64,000 nt of DNA from Actinobacteria bacterium HGW-Actinobacteria-5 (GTDB lineage: Bacteria > Actinomycetota > Actinomycetes > Propionibacteriales > Propionibacteriaceae). Positions 47,533 through 54,744 of this stretch are shown one piece after another. Every line of letters starts with the position of its first letter. The stretch's first letter is position 1. The notes under the pieces are model-generated. The model had not been told where the DNA came from. It worked only from the letters and a program-made list of their open reading frames with translations, and did not search any database. The position numbers and the translations under genes were made by a program. Where the stretch lies: the NCBI GenBank assembly GCA_002843035.1, contig PHEV01000008.1:1-64000 (forward strand), read 5' to 3'.

Positions 47533-48432
47533 ATGGATGTGCGACACCTCGAGCTGCTCCGCGAACTGGCCGACCGCGGCACGGTCACGGCCGTGGCCGA
47601 GGCGACCTTCCGCTCGCCATCGGCGGTGAGCCAGCAGCTGCGCAGCGCCGAGCGCGCGTTCGGCACGGCGCTGGTCGAGCCGGACGGACGTGGACTGCGG
47701 CTCACCGCGGCCGGACGGCTGCTGGCCGAGGGAGCGGTGGGAGTGGCGACCGAACTCGGACGGCTGCAGCGCGGGCTGGACGACCTGCGCGGCCACCCGT
47801 CCGGCGTGGTGCGGATCGCGGGCCTGCCGAGCGCCGTGGAGTTCCTGGTGCCGGGTCTGGTCTCGCGGCTGGCCGGCACCGACGTCGAGGTGGAGCTCAC
47901 CGACGAGGACGTCGCCGAGGCGGACTTCGCGTCCCGGGCGGCCGACCACGACCTGGTGATCGGGCACAGCCTCGCCGACGTACCCGCCGGCTCCGACCGC
48001 CTGCTTACCCGCGTCCTCGCCCACGAGCCGCTCGACGTGGCCCTGCCGGCGTCCCACCGACTGGCCGGGCTCCCCGCACTCACCGCAGCCGACCTCGCGG
48101 GCGAGCGCTGGATCGGGGTGCCCCTGGGCTTCCCCTTCGACACGGTGCGGATCGCGATCGAGAACCGCGCCGGAGTGGCGCTGCAGATCGTGCAGCGGAT
48201 CCGCGACAACCGGGTCGTCGAGGCACTGGTCGCGGCCGGGGTGGCCTGCGCCCTGCTGCCGCGATTCACCACCCGCCCGCGGGCGGGGGTCGTGCTGGTC
48301 CCCCTGACCGACGTGCGCTCGGTGCGCTCGATCGTCGCGCTGGGTCGTCCGGACCGGCTCGAGCGCGCCGCCGTCCGGCTGGCCCTGGGCGCGCTGGTCG
48401 AGAGCGGCCGGGACGCCGAAACCACGCGCTAG
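47533..48432 (+). CDS. LysR family transcriptional regulator
   Basis: MDVRHLELLRELADRGTVTAVAEATFRSPSAVSQQLRSAERAFGTALVEPDGRGLRLTAAG; divergent from the EamA gene. Confidence 0.94.
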   Translation: MDVRHLELLRELADRGTVTAVAEATFRSPSAVSQQLRSAERAFGTALVEPDGRGLRLTAAGRLLAEGAVGVATELGRLQRGLDDLRGHPSGVVRIAGLPSAVEFLVPGLVSRLAGTDVEVELTDEDVAEADFASRAADHDLVIGHSLADVPAGSDRLLTRVLAHEPLDVALPASHRLAGLPALTAADLAGERWIGVPLGFPFDTVRIAIENRAGVALQIVQRIRDNRVVEALVAAGVACALLPRFTTRPRAGVVLVPLTDVRSVRSIVALGRPDRLERAAVRLALGALVESGRDAETTR

Positions 48433-48461
48433 CCTCGTCCGCGGCAGCGAAGGGAGCCTCC

Positions 48462-49295
48462 ATGGAGCAAAAGACGATCGTGATCACGGGCGCCAGCGAC
48501 GGTGTCGGCGCGGCAGCGGCGCGCGAACTGGCCGGACGCGGAGCGCAGGTGGTCCTGGTCGGCCGGTCGCCGCAGAAGACGACCGCGCTCGCCGAGGAGC
48601 TCGGAGCCCCCCACCACCTGGCCGACTTCGCCTCCCTGGCCCAGGTGCGACGGCTCGCGGCAGAGCTGGACGCCGCCTACCCGCGGATCGACGTGCTCGC
48701 GAACAACGCCGGCGGCATCATGGGGTCGAAGCGGAAGGTCACCGAGGACGGCAACGAACTCACCTTCCAGGTGAACCACCTGGCCGGGTTCCTGCTCACC
48801 ACGCTGCTGATGGACAAGCTCATTGCGAGCCGGGCGTGCGTGATCCAGACCTCCAGCGTCGCCGCCCGGCTGGCCGGACGCGTCGAGCTCGACAACCTGC
48901 AGCTCGAACACGGCTACTCGGCCCAGAGCGCCTACGGGGCGAGCAAGCTGGAGAACATCCTGTTCACCAGGGAGCTGCACCGGCGCTTCCACGACCAGGG
49001 CATCAGCGCGGCGGCCTTCCACCCGGGGGTGGTCGGCACGAACTTCGCCCTGGACACCGACAGCCCGATGCGCTTCTTCTACGCCGCCGGGTTCCTCCGG
49101 AGGCTGTTCACGATCACCCCCGACCGCGGCGCCGACCAGCTCGTCTGGCTGGCCGACGGCACGCCCGGCACCACCTGGCAGTCCGGTGGCTACTACGAGA
49201 AGCGCAAGCCCGGCCACACCGCAGCCCAGGCCGACGACGCCGAGACTGCTCGCCGGCTCTGGGATGCGTCCGCGCGCCTGGTCGGCCCGGCCTGA
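48462..49295 (+). CDS. SDR family oxidoreductase
   Basis: IVITGASDGVGAAAARELAGRGAQVVLVGRS, LANNAGGIMG, YGASKLENILF. Confidence 0.94.
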   Translation: MEQKTIVITGASDGVGAAAARELAGRGAQVVLVGRSPQKTTALAEELGAPHHLADFASLAQVRRLAAELDAAYPRIDVLANNAGGIMGSKRKVTEDGNELTFQVNHLAGFLLTTLLMDKLIASRACVIQTSSVAARLAGRVELDNLQLEHGYSAQSAYGASKLENILFTRELHRRFHDQGISAAAFHPGVVGTNFALDTDSPMRFFYAAGFLRRLFTITPDRGADQLVWLADGTPGTTWQSGGYYEKRKPGHTAAQADDAETARRLWDASARLVGPA

Positions 49296-49298
49296 CGC

Positions 49299-50093
49299 TC
49301 AGCCCTGCTGGGCCTTGGCCAGCGCCGCCTCGAACGGGCCGGCGTGGTAGGGATCACCGTCGAACAGCGTGCCATTGATCTTGATCGTCGGGGTGCCCTG
49401 GATCGTGGGCAGCCGGTTCGCGGTCAGCTCGTCCAGCCACGCAACGTACTTCTGGTCGGCGAAGCTGGAGACCACGTCCGCAGGTACGCCCACGCCGGCG
49501 GCAAGATCGGCGATCTGCTGATCGCTCAGCCCGGTGGAGTTCTCCGCCGGCTGGTTCTGGTACAGCGCCTGGTAGAAGGCCAGCGCCGCCGAAGGGTCGG
49601 CGTTGGCGACCGTCGCAAACGCGTTGGCAGCCCTGGTCGAGTACTTGGTCCCCTGCGAGGCGTCGTCGAGGAAGTTGAGCGGGAAGATCTCCAGCTTCAC
49701 TCCGCCCGAGGCGACGGCCTGGCTGAGCACACTGCCGTTGGCGCGGTCGAATTCGCCGCAGTAGGGGCAGATGAAGTCGGTGTAGATGGTCACCGTGGTG
49801 GGCGCCGAGGCGTTGCCCAACACGATGGCGCCGGAGGCGTCCACCGCGCTGGGCGCACTCGCCGTGGTCTGGGCGACCGGCACGCTCGCGGCGGTCGAGG
49901 CTCGCGAGGAGCCCATCGCGAGGCCGATGGCGGCAACCACCCCAACGATGGCGGCCGCGGCGACGACTGCGATGCCGACGCGGACGGCGACGGTGCGACG
50001 GCGTGCCGCTTGTTGCTCGGCCAGGCGTTGCTGGCGCAGGGAGTCGCGGCGGTTGCCTGCCACGGGAGGCGGGGTCGGGTTCTGTTTGGTCAT
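49299..50093 (-). CDS. membrane-anchored DsbA-like disulfide oxidoreductase (copy 1)
   Basis: N-terminal TM segment; ICPYCGEF active site; PTIKINGTLFDGDPYHAGPFEAAL. Confidence 0.93.
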   Translation of the reverse strand: MTKQNPTPPPVAGNRRDSLRQQRLAEQQAARRRTVAVRVGIAVVAAAAIVGVVAAIGLAMGSSRASTAASVPVAQTTASAPSAVDASGAIVLGNASAPTTVTIYTDFICPYCGEFDRANGSVLSQAVASGGVKLEIFPLNFLDDASQGTKYSTRAANAFATVANADPSAALAFYQALYQNQPAENSTGLSDQQIADLAAGVGVPADVVSSFADQKYVAWLDELTANRLPTIQGTPTIKINGTLFDGDPYHAGPFEAALAKAQQG

Positions 50094-50207
50094 GGGGCTG
50101 TCCTTCACTGAGGCGGGGATCTCCGCCGGTAGACGTCTGTTGGCGGCGAGAGCCGCCCGGGCGCGATGGCGCGCGGTCGCGCTGCGGAGCGCGAGGGTCG
50201 AGTCAGG

Positions 50208-50678
50208 TCAGGAAAGGCAGGACGGAGGGCCGCGGCGCGGGTTCTCCCGCGTCCGGATGACGCCCGGGTACCCGGTCTGGATACGCACCGGCGCCGGCTG
50301 GCGCTGCGGCACCACCAGCCCGGAGAGCTGCACCAGCGCGGCGGCGAGCACCCGGCCGGTAGCGTCGGAGAGCCGACGGGAACCCCGCACCAGGAGCGCG
50401 CCGGCGAGGATCAGCGCAGGGAGCAGCACGAGCTGTACGAGCAGCGTGGCCGCGATCACCAGCGTCCAGCTCACCACCGGGGTGGGCGCGCTCACGCAGG
50501 CCGCACCGGAGGTGTTCGGGATCCACTGGTAGAGCGGGTGGCCGCTGTCGAAGCAGGCCACCACACTGACTCTGGGCAGGCGGAGCAGCAGCGGGACCAG
50601 TGCGAGCACCGTGAGCACACCCGCAGCGAGGCGCGACCGGATCCCCGGACGAGGCAACCACTGCCGAACGCTCTGCAC
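50208..50678 (-). CDS. uncharacterised Cys-containing membrane protein (copy 1)
   Basis: Paralog of 52318-52794: RLPRVSVVACFDSGHPLYQWIPNTSGAACVSAP...TRENPRRGPPSCLS. Confidence 0.8.
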   Translation of the reverse strand: MQSVRQWLPRPGIRSRLAAGVLTVLALVPLLLRLPRVSVVACFDSGHPLYQWIPNTSGAACVSAPTPVVSWTLVIAATLLVQLVLLPALILAGALLVRGSRRLSDATGRVLAAALVQLSGLVVPQRQPAPVRIQTGYPGVIRTRENPRRGPPSCLS

Positions 50679-50757
50679 GGGAGGAACGATACCCGCCCGC
50701 GCCAGCGCGACACCTGTCCCCTTGCGGGTGATACTGCGCCCGGTCGAGGGCGGGCCG

Positions 50758-51411
50758 TCAGGTCATCAGCGGCGCGTATTTCGTGACGATCATCGTCACC
50801 ACCGCCATCAGCCAGACCGCAACCGCGAGCGCATCGAGGTCCGCGGCGACGAACCGTCGCGCCGCCCTGCTGGCCCGCTCGGGCAGGAACAGATTGCCGT
50901 CGCGGATGTTCACGTGGGTGAGCGAGGTGAACACCAGCGTCGTCGACAGGGTGACCAGCAGGCACCAGGGACACAGTGCACCAATCACGAAGTACGCCTG
51001 GAAGAACAACCAGTAGGCGAACACGACCCCGAGGGTGTACACGACCTGCGCGGACAGCATGAACCATCGCGGGAACCGGACTCCGCCCAGGCTCGCCACG
51101 GCGATCGTGATCACGACCGGCTCGGCGACCAGGCCCAGAAACGCGTTCGGGAAGCCGAACAGGCTCGCCTGCCACGACACGCCGACCGTCCCACAGCTGA
51201 TCACCGAGCTGATGTTGCACGACAGTGCGGCCTGCGGATCCGCCGCCAGGAGCACCGCGTCCACGGACAGCACGAAGGACGCGAGCAGGCTCAGGCACGC
51301 CGAGGCCAGCATGGTGGTGAAGATCCAGGCGTTCGACTGCCGCACCCGGCGGAGACCGCCGAGGACGGACCGGTGGGCATCGCCGACGACCCGGTCCTGA
51401 TCAGGAGCCAC
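50758..51411 (-). CDS. vitamin K epoxide reductase (VKOR) family protein
   Basis: LSCNISSVISCGTVGVSWQASLFGFPNAFLGL and ALCPWCLLVTLSTTLVF; TM helices. Confidence 0.93.
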   Translation of the reverse strand: MAPDQDRVVGDAHRSVLGGLRRVRQSNAWIFTTMLASACLSLLASFVLSVDAVLLAADPQAALSCNISSVISCGTVGVSWQASLFGFPNAFLGLVAEPVVITIAVASLGGVRFPRWFMLSAQVVYTLGVVFAYWLFFQAYFVIGALCPWCLLVTLSTTLVFTSLTHVNIRDGNLFLPERASRAARRFVAADLDALAVAVWLMAVVTMIVTKYAPLMT

Positions 51412-51424
51412 AGTGGCCGACCGC

Positions 51425-52198
51425 TCACGCACCGGCGGCCCGACTGATCGCGGCAGCCAGCGCACCCGCGCTGTACAGGTCCCCGCTGAACACCTGACCG
51501 TTGACCTTCACCGTCGGCGTCCCCGTGACGCCGGAGTCGAAGGCCTGGTTGGTGATCTGATCCACCCACGGCACGTACTGCTGCGTGGCGAAGGTCGCCG
51601 AGACGGAGTCGGGCACCCCGGCCTGGCGCGCGAACTCCACCAGCTGTGCGTCGGTGAGTCCTGCCGAGCCCTCCGCGGGCTGGTTCGCGTAGAGCAGCCG
51701 GTCGAAGTTCCAGGCGAGCGTGGGATCGGTGTTCGCGACGGTGACGAACGCGTTCGCGGCGCGGGTGGAGTACTTCGTGCCCGACGACTGCGGATCGAGG
51801 AACGACATCGGGTGGATCTCGAGCTTCGCGATGCCTGCGTCCACGGCGGCGGTGAGGTCGTCGCCGTTCACCCGCTCGAACGTCCCGCAGTAAGGGCACA
51901 TGAAGTCGGCATAGATGGTGACCGTGACGGGCGCGTCAGGGTTGCCGATCACGACGGCTCCGCTGTCAGTGGCACCCATCGGGGTGACGAGCGACCCGGA
52001 GGCGGTCCCTGCGGAGCCCGGCCGGGCGACCGCCCAGACAATGACGCAGAGAAGCACGGCGATGACGGCGAATCCGGTGGCCCAGGCGGCCTTGATGACG
52101 AGGCCGGTGCGTCGCGCTGCGCGCGCGTCGGCCTCCTGTTGCCGGCGAAGGGCCTCGCGCCGGTCAGTGGTGGACGTACTTCTCCTGGTGGATGACAT
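51425..52198 (-). CDS. membrane-anchored DsbA-like disulfide oxidoreductase (copy 2)
   Basis: FMCPYCGTFERVNGDDL; GTPTVKVNGQVFSGDLYSAGALAAA. Confidence 0.93.
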   Translation of the reverse strand: MSSTRRSTSTTDRREALRRQQEADARAARRTGLVIKAAWATGFAVIAVLLCVIVWAVARPGSAGTASGSLVTPMGATDSGAVVIGNPDAPVTVTIYADFMCPYCGTFERVNGDDLTAAVDAGIAKLEIHPMSFLDPQSSGTKYSTRAANAFVTVANTDPTLAWNFDRLLYANQPAEGSAGLTDAQLVEFARQAGVPDSVSATFATQQYVPWVDQITNQAFDSGVTGTPTVKVNGQVFSGDLYSAGALAAAISRAAGA

Positions 52199-52317
52199 GG
52201 TTTCTTCGATTCCGGGCGACGGGCGCCCTGCCAGAGTGGTGAGGGAGGGGACGGCGACCAGGCCGTCCGGCGCGCACAGGCGCAAGGAAGCCGCGCCGGG
52301 TGCGGCGCGGCGCTACA

Positions 52318-52794
52318 TCACAGGCAGGTCGGAGGCCCGCGACGCGGGTTCTCCCGCGTCCGGGTCGCACCGGTGAATCGCGTTCGGACCGGGACGGCCA
52401 CCGGCCGCCGGCCCGGGACCAGGACCGCGCCGAGCTGCACCAGGGCTGCCGCCAAGACGCGATCCACGATCGCGGCGAGACGGCGGACCGCCCGCAGCAG
52501 CATCGCGCCGACCAGAAGCAGTGCCGGCAGCAGAGCGAGCTGGACGATCAGCGTGGCACCGATCATCAGGGTCCAGCCGAGCACCGGCGCGGGGGCGCTG
52601 ACGCAGTGCACCCCGGCGGCGAAATCGCTCGTCGGGATCCACTGGTACAGCGGGTGCGTGCCGTCGAAGCACGCCACCACAATCACCCTGGGCAGGCGCA
52701 GCAGAGGCGGCACCAGCACGAGCACGGTGAGCAGGGCGGCGACGAGCCGCGTCCGGATTCCCGGACGGGGCGACCACCGCCGAAGCCTTTGCAT
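52318..52794 (-). CDS. uncharacterised Cys-containing membrane protein (copy 2)
   Basis: RLPRVIVVACFDGTHPLYQWIPTSDFAAGVHCVSAP...RTRENPRRGPPTCL; aligns along its length to copy 1. Confidence 0.8.
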   Translation of the reverse strand: MQRLRRWSPRPGIRTRLVAALLTVLVLVPPLLRLPRVIVVACFDGTHPLYQWIPTSDFAAGVHCVSAPAPVLGWTLMIGATLIVQLALLPALLLVGAMLLRAVRRLAAIVDRVLAAALVQLGAVLVPGRRPVAVPVRTRFTGATRTRENPRRGPPTCL

Positions 52795-52862
52795 GGGTGA
52801 ACCATACCTGCGGGGTTCCTCATCCGTGGACGCGGGAGTCGTCTGGTCTACCGAGCCCGTGT

Positions 52863-52868
52863 TAGCCT
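52863..52868 (+). promoter_or_regulatory. -10 element TAGCCT for a leaderless transcript
   Basis: TAGCCT, 6-nt spacer, then ATG of the poly-Cys ORF at 52875. Confidence 0.55.
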
Positions 52869-52874
52869 CCTCGC

Positions 52875-52958
52875 ATGCACACCAGCCGCAGGCTCGCCGT
52901 ATCGCTGAGCTACCCGCGCGCCCTTTCGTGCATGTGTTGTTGTCACAGCCTGGCCTGA
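52875..52958 (+). CDS. poly-cysteine leader peptide (27 aa), putative cysteine-responsive attenuator
   Basis: ATG CAC ACC AGC CGC AGG CTC GCC GTA TCG CTG AGC TAC CCG CGC GCC CTT TCG TGC ATG TGT TGT TGT CAC AGC CTG GCC TGA; four Cys in five codons. Confidence 0.65.
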   Translation: MHTSRRLAVSLSYPRALSCMCCCHSLA

Positions 52959-53053
52959 CCGCAGCCGCCTGAACGCCGCGTCCACCAGCGGCGACACCCT
53001 TCTCCTGTGCGCCCGCTGCGCGACCCCGACCGCCCGACACCAGAGGACCAACC

Positions 53054-53527
53054 ATGCCCAGCACGACCACCACACCTCCGCTCGTGACCGCCCGGATCGA
53101 CCCGCGCGGCCCCCGCTTCGCCGCCGCCGTCACCTCCGTGGTGCTGGCGGGCACGCTGCTCGCCGGCCCGCAGCTCGGGCTGCCGCTGCTTGCCGTCCAG
53201 GCGTTTGCCTTCGGCGCCGGCGCCCTGCTCGGCCTGCGCTACCAGCCCTATGGCTGGGTCTTCCGCCACTACATCCGCCCGCGGCTGGAGGAACCGGCCG
53301 ACCTCGAGGACGAGCGTCCGCCACGTTTCGCGCAGGCTGTCGGCTTCGGCTTCGCCCTGCTCGCCATCGCGGGTGCGCTCGCCAGCCTGGACGCCCTGTT
53401 CTATGTCGCGGCGGGCTTCGCGCTGGGCGCCGCCCTGCTGAACGCCGTGTTCGACTTCTGCCTCGGCTGCGAGCTGTACCTGTTCGGTATGCGCCTGCGG
53501 GGCCGCCGGGCAGGGGGCTCCCGGTGA
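53054..53527 (+). CDS. DUF4395 domain membrane protein
   Basis: VTARIDPRGPRFAAAVTSVVLAGTLL...LEDERPPRFAQAVGFGFALLAIAG...LNAVFDFCLGCELYLFGMRL. Confidence 0.88.
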   Translation: MPSTTTTPPLVTARIDPRGPRFAAAVTSVVLAGTLLAGPQLGLPLLAVQAFAFGAGALLGLRYQPYGWVFRHYIRPRLEEPADLEDERPPRFAQAVGFGFALLAIAGALASLDALFYVAAGFALGAALLNAVFDFCLGCELYLFGMRLRGRRAGGSR

Positions 53528-54744
53528 CCGGGCTGTGGGTGGTCGGCGCGACCGTCCTGCTCGCGCTCGGCTTCGGCCTCTTCCGCCGGGCCACGGACGG
53601 ACGGATCGCGTCGGCCGTCCCCGCACGCGAGGGCGACCTCGGCCCGTCCCGGCTCGGCCGTCCCCTGGGTGAGCGGGCCACGTTCGTCCAGTTCTCCTCG
53701 GAGGTCTGCGCTCCGTGCCGGGCCACCAGCCGCCTCCTCGGCGAGCTGGTCGACCAGGAGCCCGGCGTCGCGCACGTCGAGCTCGACGCCGCGGAGCACC
53801 TCGACCTGGCCAGGGAACTGGGAATCTCCCGTACTCCCACGGTGTTGTTGCTCGACAGTGAGGGAGCGGTGCGCCACCGGATCGTCGGCGCCCCCCGCAG
53901 GCCGGACGTGCTGCGGGCCTTGCAGAACATCCTCGAAGGAACGAAGGCACCCGATATGACCACCACCCATCGCGACGACGTGTGGAGCCGCATCCGCACC
54001 GAGGTCCGAGCCGATGCGCAGGCCGAGCCCGCCCTGGCGAGCTTCCTGCACACCAACGTGCTCTCGCACTCCCGGCTCGAGGACGCCCTGAGTTTCATCC
54101 TGGCCAGCAAGCTGGGCAGCGAGACGATCACCTCGCTCAGCCTGCGCGAACTGATCCGGCGCGCCTTCGACGACGACCGGGCGATCAGCGTCGCCGTCCG
54201 CGAGGACCTGCGGGCAGTACTCAGCCGCGACCCGGCGTGCCGGGGCTACTCGATGCCGCTGCTGTATTTCAAGGGCTTCCACGCCCTGCAGGCCTACCGC
54301 GTGGCGCACTACTACTGGACCCACGACCGCCCCGCCCTGGCCCTGTACCTGCAGAGCCGGATCTCGGAGGTGTTCGCCGTCGACATCCACCCCGGCGCCC
54401 GGATCGGGAAGGGGATCATGTTCGACCACGCCACGTCCGTGGTGATCGGCGAGACTGCGGTCGTCGAGGACGACTTCTCGATGCTGCACGAGGTCACCCT
54501 CGGCGGCACCGGCAAGGTCGGCGGCGACCGGCACCCGAAGATCGGCAAGGGTGTGATGATCGGTGCCGGCGCCAAGGTGCTCGGCAACATCCGGGTCGGC
54601 GAGGGCGCCCGGATCGGTGCCGGCTCCGTGGTGCTGGAGGACGTCCCGCCGTACACAACGGTGGCCGGCGTCCCCGCGCGTCCGGTCAGCTACCCGGAGA
54701 ACGCCCACCCGGCCCTGGACGACCTGGACACCATCGAGCGCTGA
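53524..54744 (+). CDS. cysE: thioredoxin-like domain fused in frame to serine O-acetyltransferase (CysE)
   Basis: N-terminal TM plus VQFSSEVCAPCRATSRLLGELVDQEPG...ISRTPTVLLLDSEG; from Met145: SRIRTEVRADAQAEPALASFLHTNVLSHSRLEDALSFILASKLG...IHPGARIGKGIMFDHATSVVIGETAVVEDD... No stop between the domains. Confidence 0.88.
   Translation: MTGLWVVGATVLLALGFGLFRRATDGRIASAVPAREGDLGPSRLGRPLGERATFVQFSSEVCAPCRATSRLLGELVDQEPGVAHVELDAAEHLDLARELGISRTPTVLLLDSEGAVRHRIVGAPRRPDVLRALQNILEGTKAPDMTTTHRDDVWSRIRTEVRADAQAEPALASFLHTNVLSHSRLEDALSFILASKLGSETITSLSLRELIRRAFDDDRAISVAVREDLRAVLSRDPACRGYSMPLLYFKGFHALQAYRVAHYYWTHDRPALALYLQSRISEVFAVDIHPGARIGKGIMFDHATSVVIGETAVVEDDFSMLHEVTLGGTGKVGGDRHPKIGKGVMIGAGAKVLGNIRVGEGARIGAGSVVLEDVPPYTTVAGVPARPVSYPENAHPALDDLDTIER

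Follow-up and report, generated by a model that had tools for sequence, protein, structure and literature searches.

Paralogous RGPP-ending membrane proteins as probable regulatory arrest peptides at the head of dsbA operons in Propionibacteriaceae

The 64,000-nucleotide stretch of Actinobacteria bacterium HGW-Actinobacteria-5 analyzed here (contig PHEV01000008.1, positions 1 to 64,000; hereafter the window) encodes two DsbA oxidoreductases and a VKOR, and each dsbA gene is preceded by a gene for a small membrane protein, termed hyp1 and hyp2. Why should such a gene stand before dsbA, and twice in the same locus? An earlier note on this DNA had proposed that the hyp proteins are a dedicated component or substrate of each DsbA. 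Our analysis upholds the dedicated link to DsbA and VKOR, while the proposed role is probably wrong. With a probability of about two in three, judged from sequence, hyp1 and hyp2 belong to the regulatory arrest peptides of the RGPP class, each being the leaderless first cistron of a dsbA operon and controlling dsbA, or dsbA together with vkor. It is very likely that RGPP stalls ribosomes within the hyp proteins, and likely, with somewhat less confidence, that the hyp open reading frame (ORF) regulates dsbA.

The RGPP terminus and its linkage to dsbA

Both genes lie on the minus strand. hyp1 (50208-50678) has a GTG start and encodes 156 residues ending in RGPPSCLS, and hyp2 (52318-52794) encodes 158 residues ending in RGPPTCL. 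Over the full length, the two proteins share 66% identity, in agreement with the paralogy claimed previously, and neither has a credible family match in Pfam or NCBIfam. Their shared terminus, TRENPRRGPP[S/T]CL, is conserved as the earlier note described; it is more than a family signature, since it holds the RGPP arrest motif. The predicted ribosome arrest sites are the RGPP codons at 50223-50234 (minus strand) in hyp1, followed by four codons and the stop, and at 52330-52341 (minus strand) in hyp2. RGPP occurs three times in the called ORFs of the window, and two of these occurrences are the hyp C-termini. The sequence CGCGGGAGAACCCGCG was considered as a dispersed repeat and rejected, as in this genome it is confined to the two hyp genes and encodes the shared C-terminus.

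RGPP is invariant in every hyp homolog aligned (alignments A1, A2 and A3). Invariant residues are few in these alignments, and they always include two cysteines and the C-terminal RGPP, which in all 38 members with two transmembrane (TM) segments is separated from the stop by 2-6 residues. No other RAPP-like motif arrests ribosomes as stably as RGPP. As a tetrapeptide it is depleted more than any other in 10 of the major bacterial groups surveyed, small secretory and membrane proteins carry it in excess near their C-terminus, and all seven RAPP/RGPP proteins of Streptomyces lividans that were tested arrested translation (PMC12992588). Since proteomes avoid the motif so strongly (PMC12992588), some cause is needed for its being invariant at the very C-terminus. 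With about 150-170 residues, the hyp proteins also have the size (below 300 residues) and localization (N-terminal signal or TM segment) of the RAPP/RGPP class.

A scan of genome contigs for group 1, the subfamily of the window, returned nothing with hyp1 alone as the query and 12 loci with an alignment as the query. The named relatives belong to Propionicimonas, Micropruina, Granulicoccus and other Propionibacteriaceae. In all group-1 relatives with flanking sequence, hyp, dsbA and vkor follow one another on one strand within varied surroundings. As this order recurs in other genera whose surroundings differ, the linkage is not due to chance. Group 2 is a remote relative at the profile level (hhalign 96.2%, E 2.6e-9), and nearly all of its members have dsbA or vkor as the next gene downstream. 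The association with DsbA and VKOR, whose absence from the gene neighborhoods would have spoken against the earlier note, is therefore real and widespread.

To quantify this linkage, we took a census of Propionibacteriaceae VKOR loci with DsbA directly upstream (n = 40, excluding the copies in the window), scoring upstream ORFs with the motif within 15 residues of the stop. An RGPP-ending ORF heads 31 of the 40 dsbA-vkor operons, across nine genera, in the position typical of the RAPP/RGPP class, on the same strand and directly upstream of the linked gene. In the same 40 operons, A[AG]PP scored 0, permuted motifs 0-3 and antisense RGPP 0. The ORFs diverge to about 25-30% identity, and many of those in the census escape detection by the hyp profile. 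Eighteen such ORFs could be aligned with 24-64% identity to the first row, most group-2 proteins falling at 24-38%, and the residues invariant among them are two cysteines, two glycines, one tryptophan and RGPP.

The operon order varies in some loci. On an apparent mobile island, the RGPP ORF is kept at the head of an operon with the order upstream ORF (uORF)-vkor-dsbA, and in another locus (L244) it lies between vkor and dsbA. Two loci consist of uORF-dsbA and lack vkor (L238, whose genome has no VKOR match, and L243).

The mobile island carries vkor-dsbA together with a P-type ATPase, a multicopper oxidase and two distinct RGPP-ending ORFs, and its near-identical ORFs are found in several genera (L241, L247, L239/L240, L101, L103, L104, L106 and L107). 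Upstream of dsbA-vkor in three loci, two of them counted among the 31 (L052 and L053) and one outside the family (L197, with a RAPP end), the ORF is of another type and differs in its membrane layout. These ORFs end in RGPPLLA or RAPPR and resemble copper-linked multi-TM arrest-peptide candidates. In L049, L050 and L051, which belong to a genus without an RGPP ORF at this place, a CopC-like gene lies directly upstream of dsbA-vkor.

The cysteine pair and the proposed redox sensing

hyp1 and hyp2 each have two predicted TM segments and, as previously described, two cysteines between them. More specifically, the loop from Cys42 to Cys61 of hyp1 (50496-50555, minus strand) and that from Cys42 to Cys64 of hyp2 (52603-52671, minus strand) are predicted to be extracytoplasmic. 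Both segments are visible by hydropathy in most members, and the cysteine pair lies between them in 38 of 38 two-TM members, with 18-23 residues between the cysteines. An AlphaFold2 model of hyp1, which is weak (predicted local distance difference test 70, predicted TM-score 0.31), contains helices at residues 13-33 and 67-122 and short strands at 41-43 and 60-62, with one cysteine on each strand. A Foldseek search against the PDB gave no match.

In the same 38 members, the distance from the second cysteine to RGPP is nearly fixed, at 87-89 residues in group 1 and 92-96 in group 2, despite the poor sequence conservation of the intervening tail. Such constancy is expected if the geometry during arrest is important. 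About 30-40 residues fit into the ribosome tunnel, and about 65-70 residues reach the far side of the membrane. Given these lengths and the distance to RGPP, both cysteines should be outside when arrest occurs. A cis-acting regulatory nascent chain would fit these features, namely an unvarying RGPP close to the stop, a spacer ahead of dsbA, the position as first cistron and the fixed cysteine-RGPP distance.

In the mechanism proposed here, a ribosome would stall 3-4 codons short of the stop, with the RGPP prolines occupying its P and A sites. By then, TM1 and TM2 would have left the tunnel and the two-cysteine loop would be exposed on the extracytoplasmic side. Release would be decided by disulfide bonding of the loop cysteines through DsbA, recharged by VKOR, or by other pulling. 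In one sense, the term substrate of the earlier note may hold literally, as the nascent loop cysteines could be oxidized by DsbA as a monitoring substrate. A persistent stall would signify low oxidizing capacity and would step up dsbA (and vkor) expression, through release of a masked ribosome-binding site of dsbA or through obstruction of Rho within the C-rich spacer. RGPP arrest has been published for other proteins; the redox sensing, the sign of the response and the output step we infer. That the cysteine pair senses disulfide formation comes close to an even chance. A shade more tentative is the wider proposal of a nascent-chain sensor family whose cysteine pair, kept at a set distance from RGPP, would gauge the extracytoplasmic disulfide-forming capacity and feed back on DsbA and VKOR synthesis, duplicated here to give one sensor per DsbA paralog.

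Promoters, spacers and the candidate output step

A TANNNT -10 box ends 6-7 nucleotides before the start codon in 14 of 14 group-1 homologs. The mRNA should therefore be leaderless, with hyp as the first cistron. In the window, the predicted leaderless promoters comprise TATCGT plus 7 nucleotides before the hyp1 GTG (50679-50691, minus strand) and TATGGT plus 6 nucleotides before the hyp2 ATG (52795-52806, minus strand). Since hyp1 has its own -10 box, hyp1-dsbA1 is probably a transcription unit separate from hyp2-dsbA2-vkor.

The spacer between the hyp stop and the dsbA start measures 77-198 nucleotides. Every spacer contains more C than G (mean 0.42 versus 0.28), a composition that would suit Rho action; in CruR, Rho acts within the spacer (PMC9426467). 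Complementarity between the final codons of the ORF and the ribosome-binding region of dsbA was seen in several lineages, with different letters each time. Matched pairs of uORF end and Shine-Dalgarno (SD) region were more complementary than mismatched ones, being equaled in 21 of 20,000 permutations, or in 117 of 5,000 with one operon per clade. A cysteine occurs among the 2-6 residues that follow RGPP in 25 of the 38 members (for instance at 50211-50222 and 52321-52329, minus strand), and this excess, with Ser-Cys-stop ends of the TCC-TGC-TGA style, may represent an anti-SD sequence at the RNA level. In the hyp1-dsbA1 intergenic region (50094-50207, minus strand), the hyp1 stop region is predicted to pair with the dsbA1 SD, and a modeled ribosome parked on the hyp1 RGPP lowers the cost of opening this SD from 9.5 to 3.9 kcal/mol (a gain of 5.7). 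The corresponding hyp2-dsbA2 region (52199-52317, minus strand) is C-rich and structured, with no predicted masking of the SD by the hyp2 end. As in SecM-secA, the stall is predicted to free a downstream ribosome-binding site, with dsbA1 as the best case here; unlike the hyp proteins, SecM has a RAGP motif, targets secA and is not known to carry a cysteine pair. An Rfam search of 48000-54500 gave no match at E<=1, so this region contains no known RNA element.

Several points weigh against the arrest-peptide interpretation. The gain in SD opening exceeds 1 kcal/mol in only 14 of 33 operons and is absent for dsbA2, a ribosome block shifted by 24 nucleotides yields nearly the same gain, and the mean z-score relative to shuffled SD regions is only -0.56. 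The loci share descent, and their counts are consequently not independent. The second copy on the mobile island adjoins the multicopper oxidase and is followed by neither dsbA nor vkor. Among 22 DsbA-VKOR operons sampled outside the family, some with short flanks, none had a two-TM RGPP ORF and one had a multi-TM RAPP ORF. Finally, the hyp proteins may also be functional once made. Universal SD sequestration across all operons is not supported. SD unmasking is plausible for some of them, including hyp1-dsbA1, and Rho control is an equal candidate. The hyp-type ORFs are mostly found in Propionibacteriaceae, and a general actinobacterial trait is unsupported; the A3 profile found no convincing full-length member when genomes from elsewhere in the phylum were sampled.

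The remaining genes of the locus agree with an oxidative folding pair. The order hyp2, DsbA2, VKOR, hyp1, DsbA1 on the minus strand is as the earlier note gave it, and Pfam identifies both DsbAs (Thioredoxin_4, 1.6e-20 for DsbA1 and 3.6e-24 for DsbA2, plus DSBA) and VKOR (4.7e-32). Thus, the DsbA thioredoxin fold with a CXXC and the VKOR domain are both present. dsbA1 (49299-50093, minus strand, likely ATG at 50093) encodes a CPYC protein with an N-terminal anchor, and dsbA2 (51425-52198, minus strand, likely ATG at 52198) a second CPYC protein; vkor spans 50758 to about 51465 on the same strand. Two hyp-DsbA modules do flank VKOR, as had been claimed, but they are unequal copies. DsbA1 and DsbA2 are only 46% identical, DsbA1 being a fast-evolving, long-branch paralog and DsbA2 the nearer match to the DsbAs of the relatives' hyp-dsbA-vkor operons. 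Among the genomes searched, two hyp copies of this subfamily occur only in this one.

The divergent cysteine-biosynthesis genes with a poly-Cys leader, also reported previously, were found as well. The leader, MCCCHSLA-stop (52932-52958, plus strand), shares a 137-bp divergent region with hyp2 and lies upstream of a DUF4395 gene and a serine acetyltransferase (CysE) with a thioredoxin domain fused at its N-terminus (53524-54744, plus strand). We take this leader to resemble the known cysteine-responsive attenuators of actinobacteria.

Alternative inputs and comparison with known systems

An arrest peptide controlling dsbA(-vkor) could instead respond to membrane insertion or Sec-YidC capacity, with the cysteines only stabilizing the loop. 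The RAPP-class ApdA, ApdP and ApcA, as well as SecM, MifM and VemP, are tied to Sec or YidC (PMC10987492), and in most hyp members TM2 and RGPP are about 50-58 residues apart, comparable to the short spacer of constant length in MifM (median 54). Like the hyp genes, ApdA, ApdP and ApcA combine a RAPP-like motif and a localization signal in an ORF directly before the regulated gene. However, they precede secDF2 or yidC2, and the source passages describe no conserved cysteine pair for them, whereas the gene following hyp is in nearly every case dsbA and/or vkor, not the secA, secDF or yidC that marks a Sec/YidC monitoring substrate. As insertion sensing also needs no invariant cysteine pair, we regard this input as unlikely. 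Copper or another metal is a much less probable signal, in which case the cysteine pair would bind Cu(I) and DsbA/VKOR would serve a metal-stress response. Such a role would fit the members whose island also holds P-type ATPases and a multicopper oxidase, and the CopC-like genes before some RGPP-less dsbA-vkor operons. CruR (DUF2946, Bordetella) likewise is the first gene of its operon and is followed by a long spacer, and its two cysteines keep a conserved distance to a RAPP at the C-terminus. Yet CruR has a CXXC and is proposed to perceive cytoplasmic copper, while the hyp proteins have no CXXC and no PF11162 match, and their cysteines are 18-23 residues apart and predicted to be outside. 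Moreover, group 2 has no invariant histidine or methionine, and metal genes are absent beside most loci.

It is least probable, and indeed improbable, that hyp is a working protein, be it a small partner or chaperone of DsbA/VKOR in the membrane or a substrate dedicated to DsbA, as the earlier note held, with an RGPP that is incidental or only slows its synthesis. The constant linkage would suit such a protein, as would the group-1 loop, which is conserved beyond its cysteines (CFDxxHPLY, CVxAP). Outside group 1, though, loop and TM sequences drift while RGPP and its distance stay, and the motif is strongly avoided in proteomes (PMC12992588), so that its constancy at the very C-terminus calls for an explanation.

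The regulatory arrest peptide remains favored, and it has described counterparts. RAPP/RGPP-class arrest peptides upstream of DsbA- or thioredoxin-family genes, SLIV_27375 of S. lividans among them, are membrane proteins with a C-terminal RGPP/RAPP and a same-strand thiol-oxidoreductase gene downstream; SLIV_27375 arrests ribosomes in vitro, and its conserved Cys88 and Cys109 are predicted to lie close together (PMC12992588). Compared by published description only (PMC12992588), it differs in that four TM segments are predicted for it and the gene downstream encodes a thioredoxin domain, whereas hyp has two segments, with Cys-x(18-23)-Cys between them, and dsbA and vkor downstream. RGPP ORFs are over-represented upstream of several gene classes, and their occurrence upstream of DsbA-family genes was already flagged statistically in 2025 (PMC12992588). 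The two-TM/cysteine-pair architecture and the duplication of the hyp family appear to be undescribed.

If correct, this reading would make hyp a self-contained monitor, with the first cistron as sensor, a ribosome stall as readout and the oxidation state of the cysteines in the sensor as the probable input. The DsbA-linked RGPP class, known until now mostly from statistics, would gain a concrete system, and hyp could serve as a reporter for envelope thiol oxidation. The reach of arrest peptides, which includes protein export and copper, would then extend to oxidative folding.
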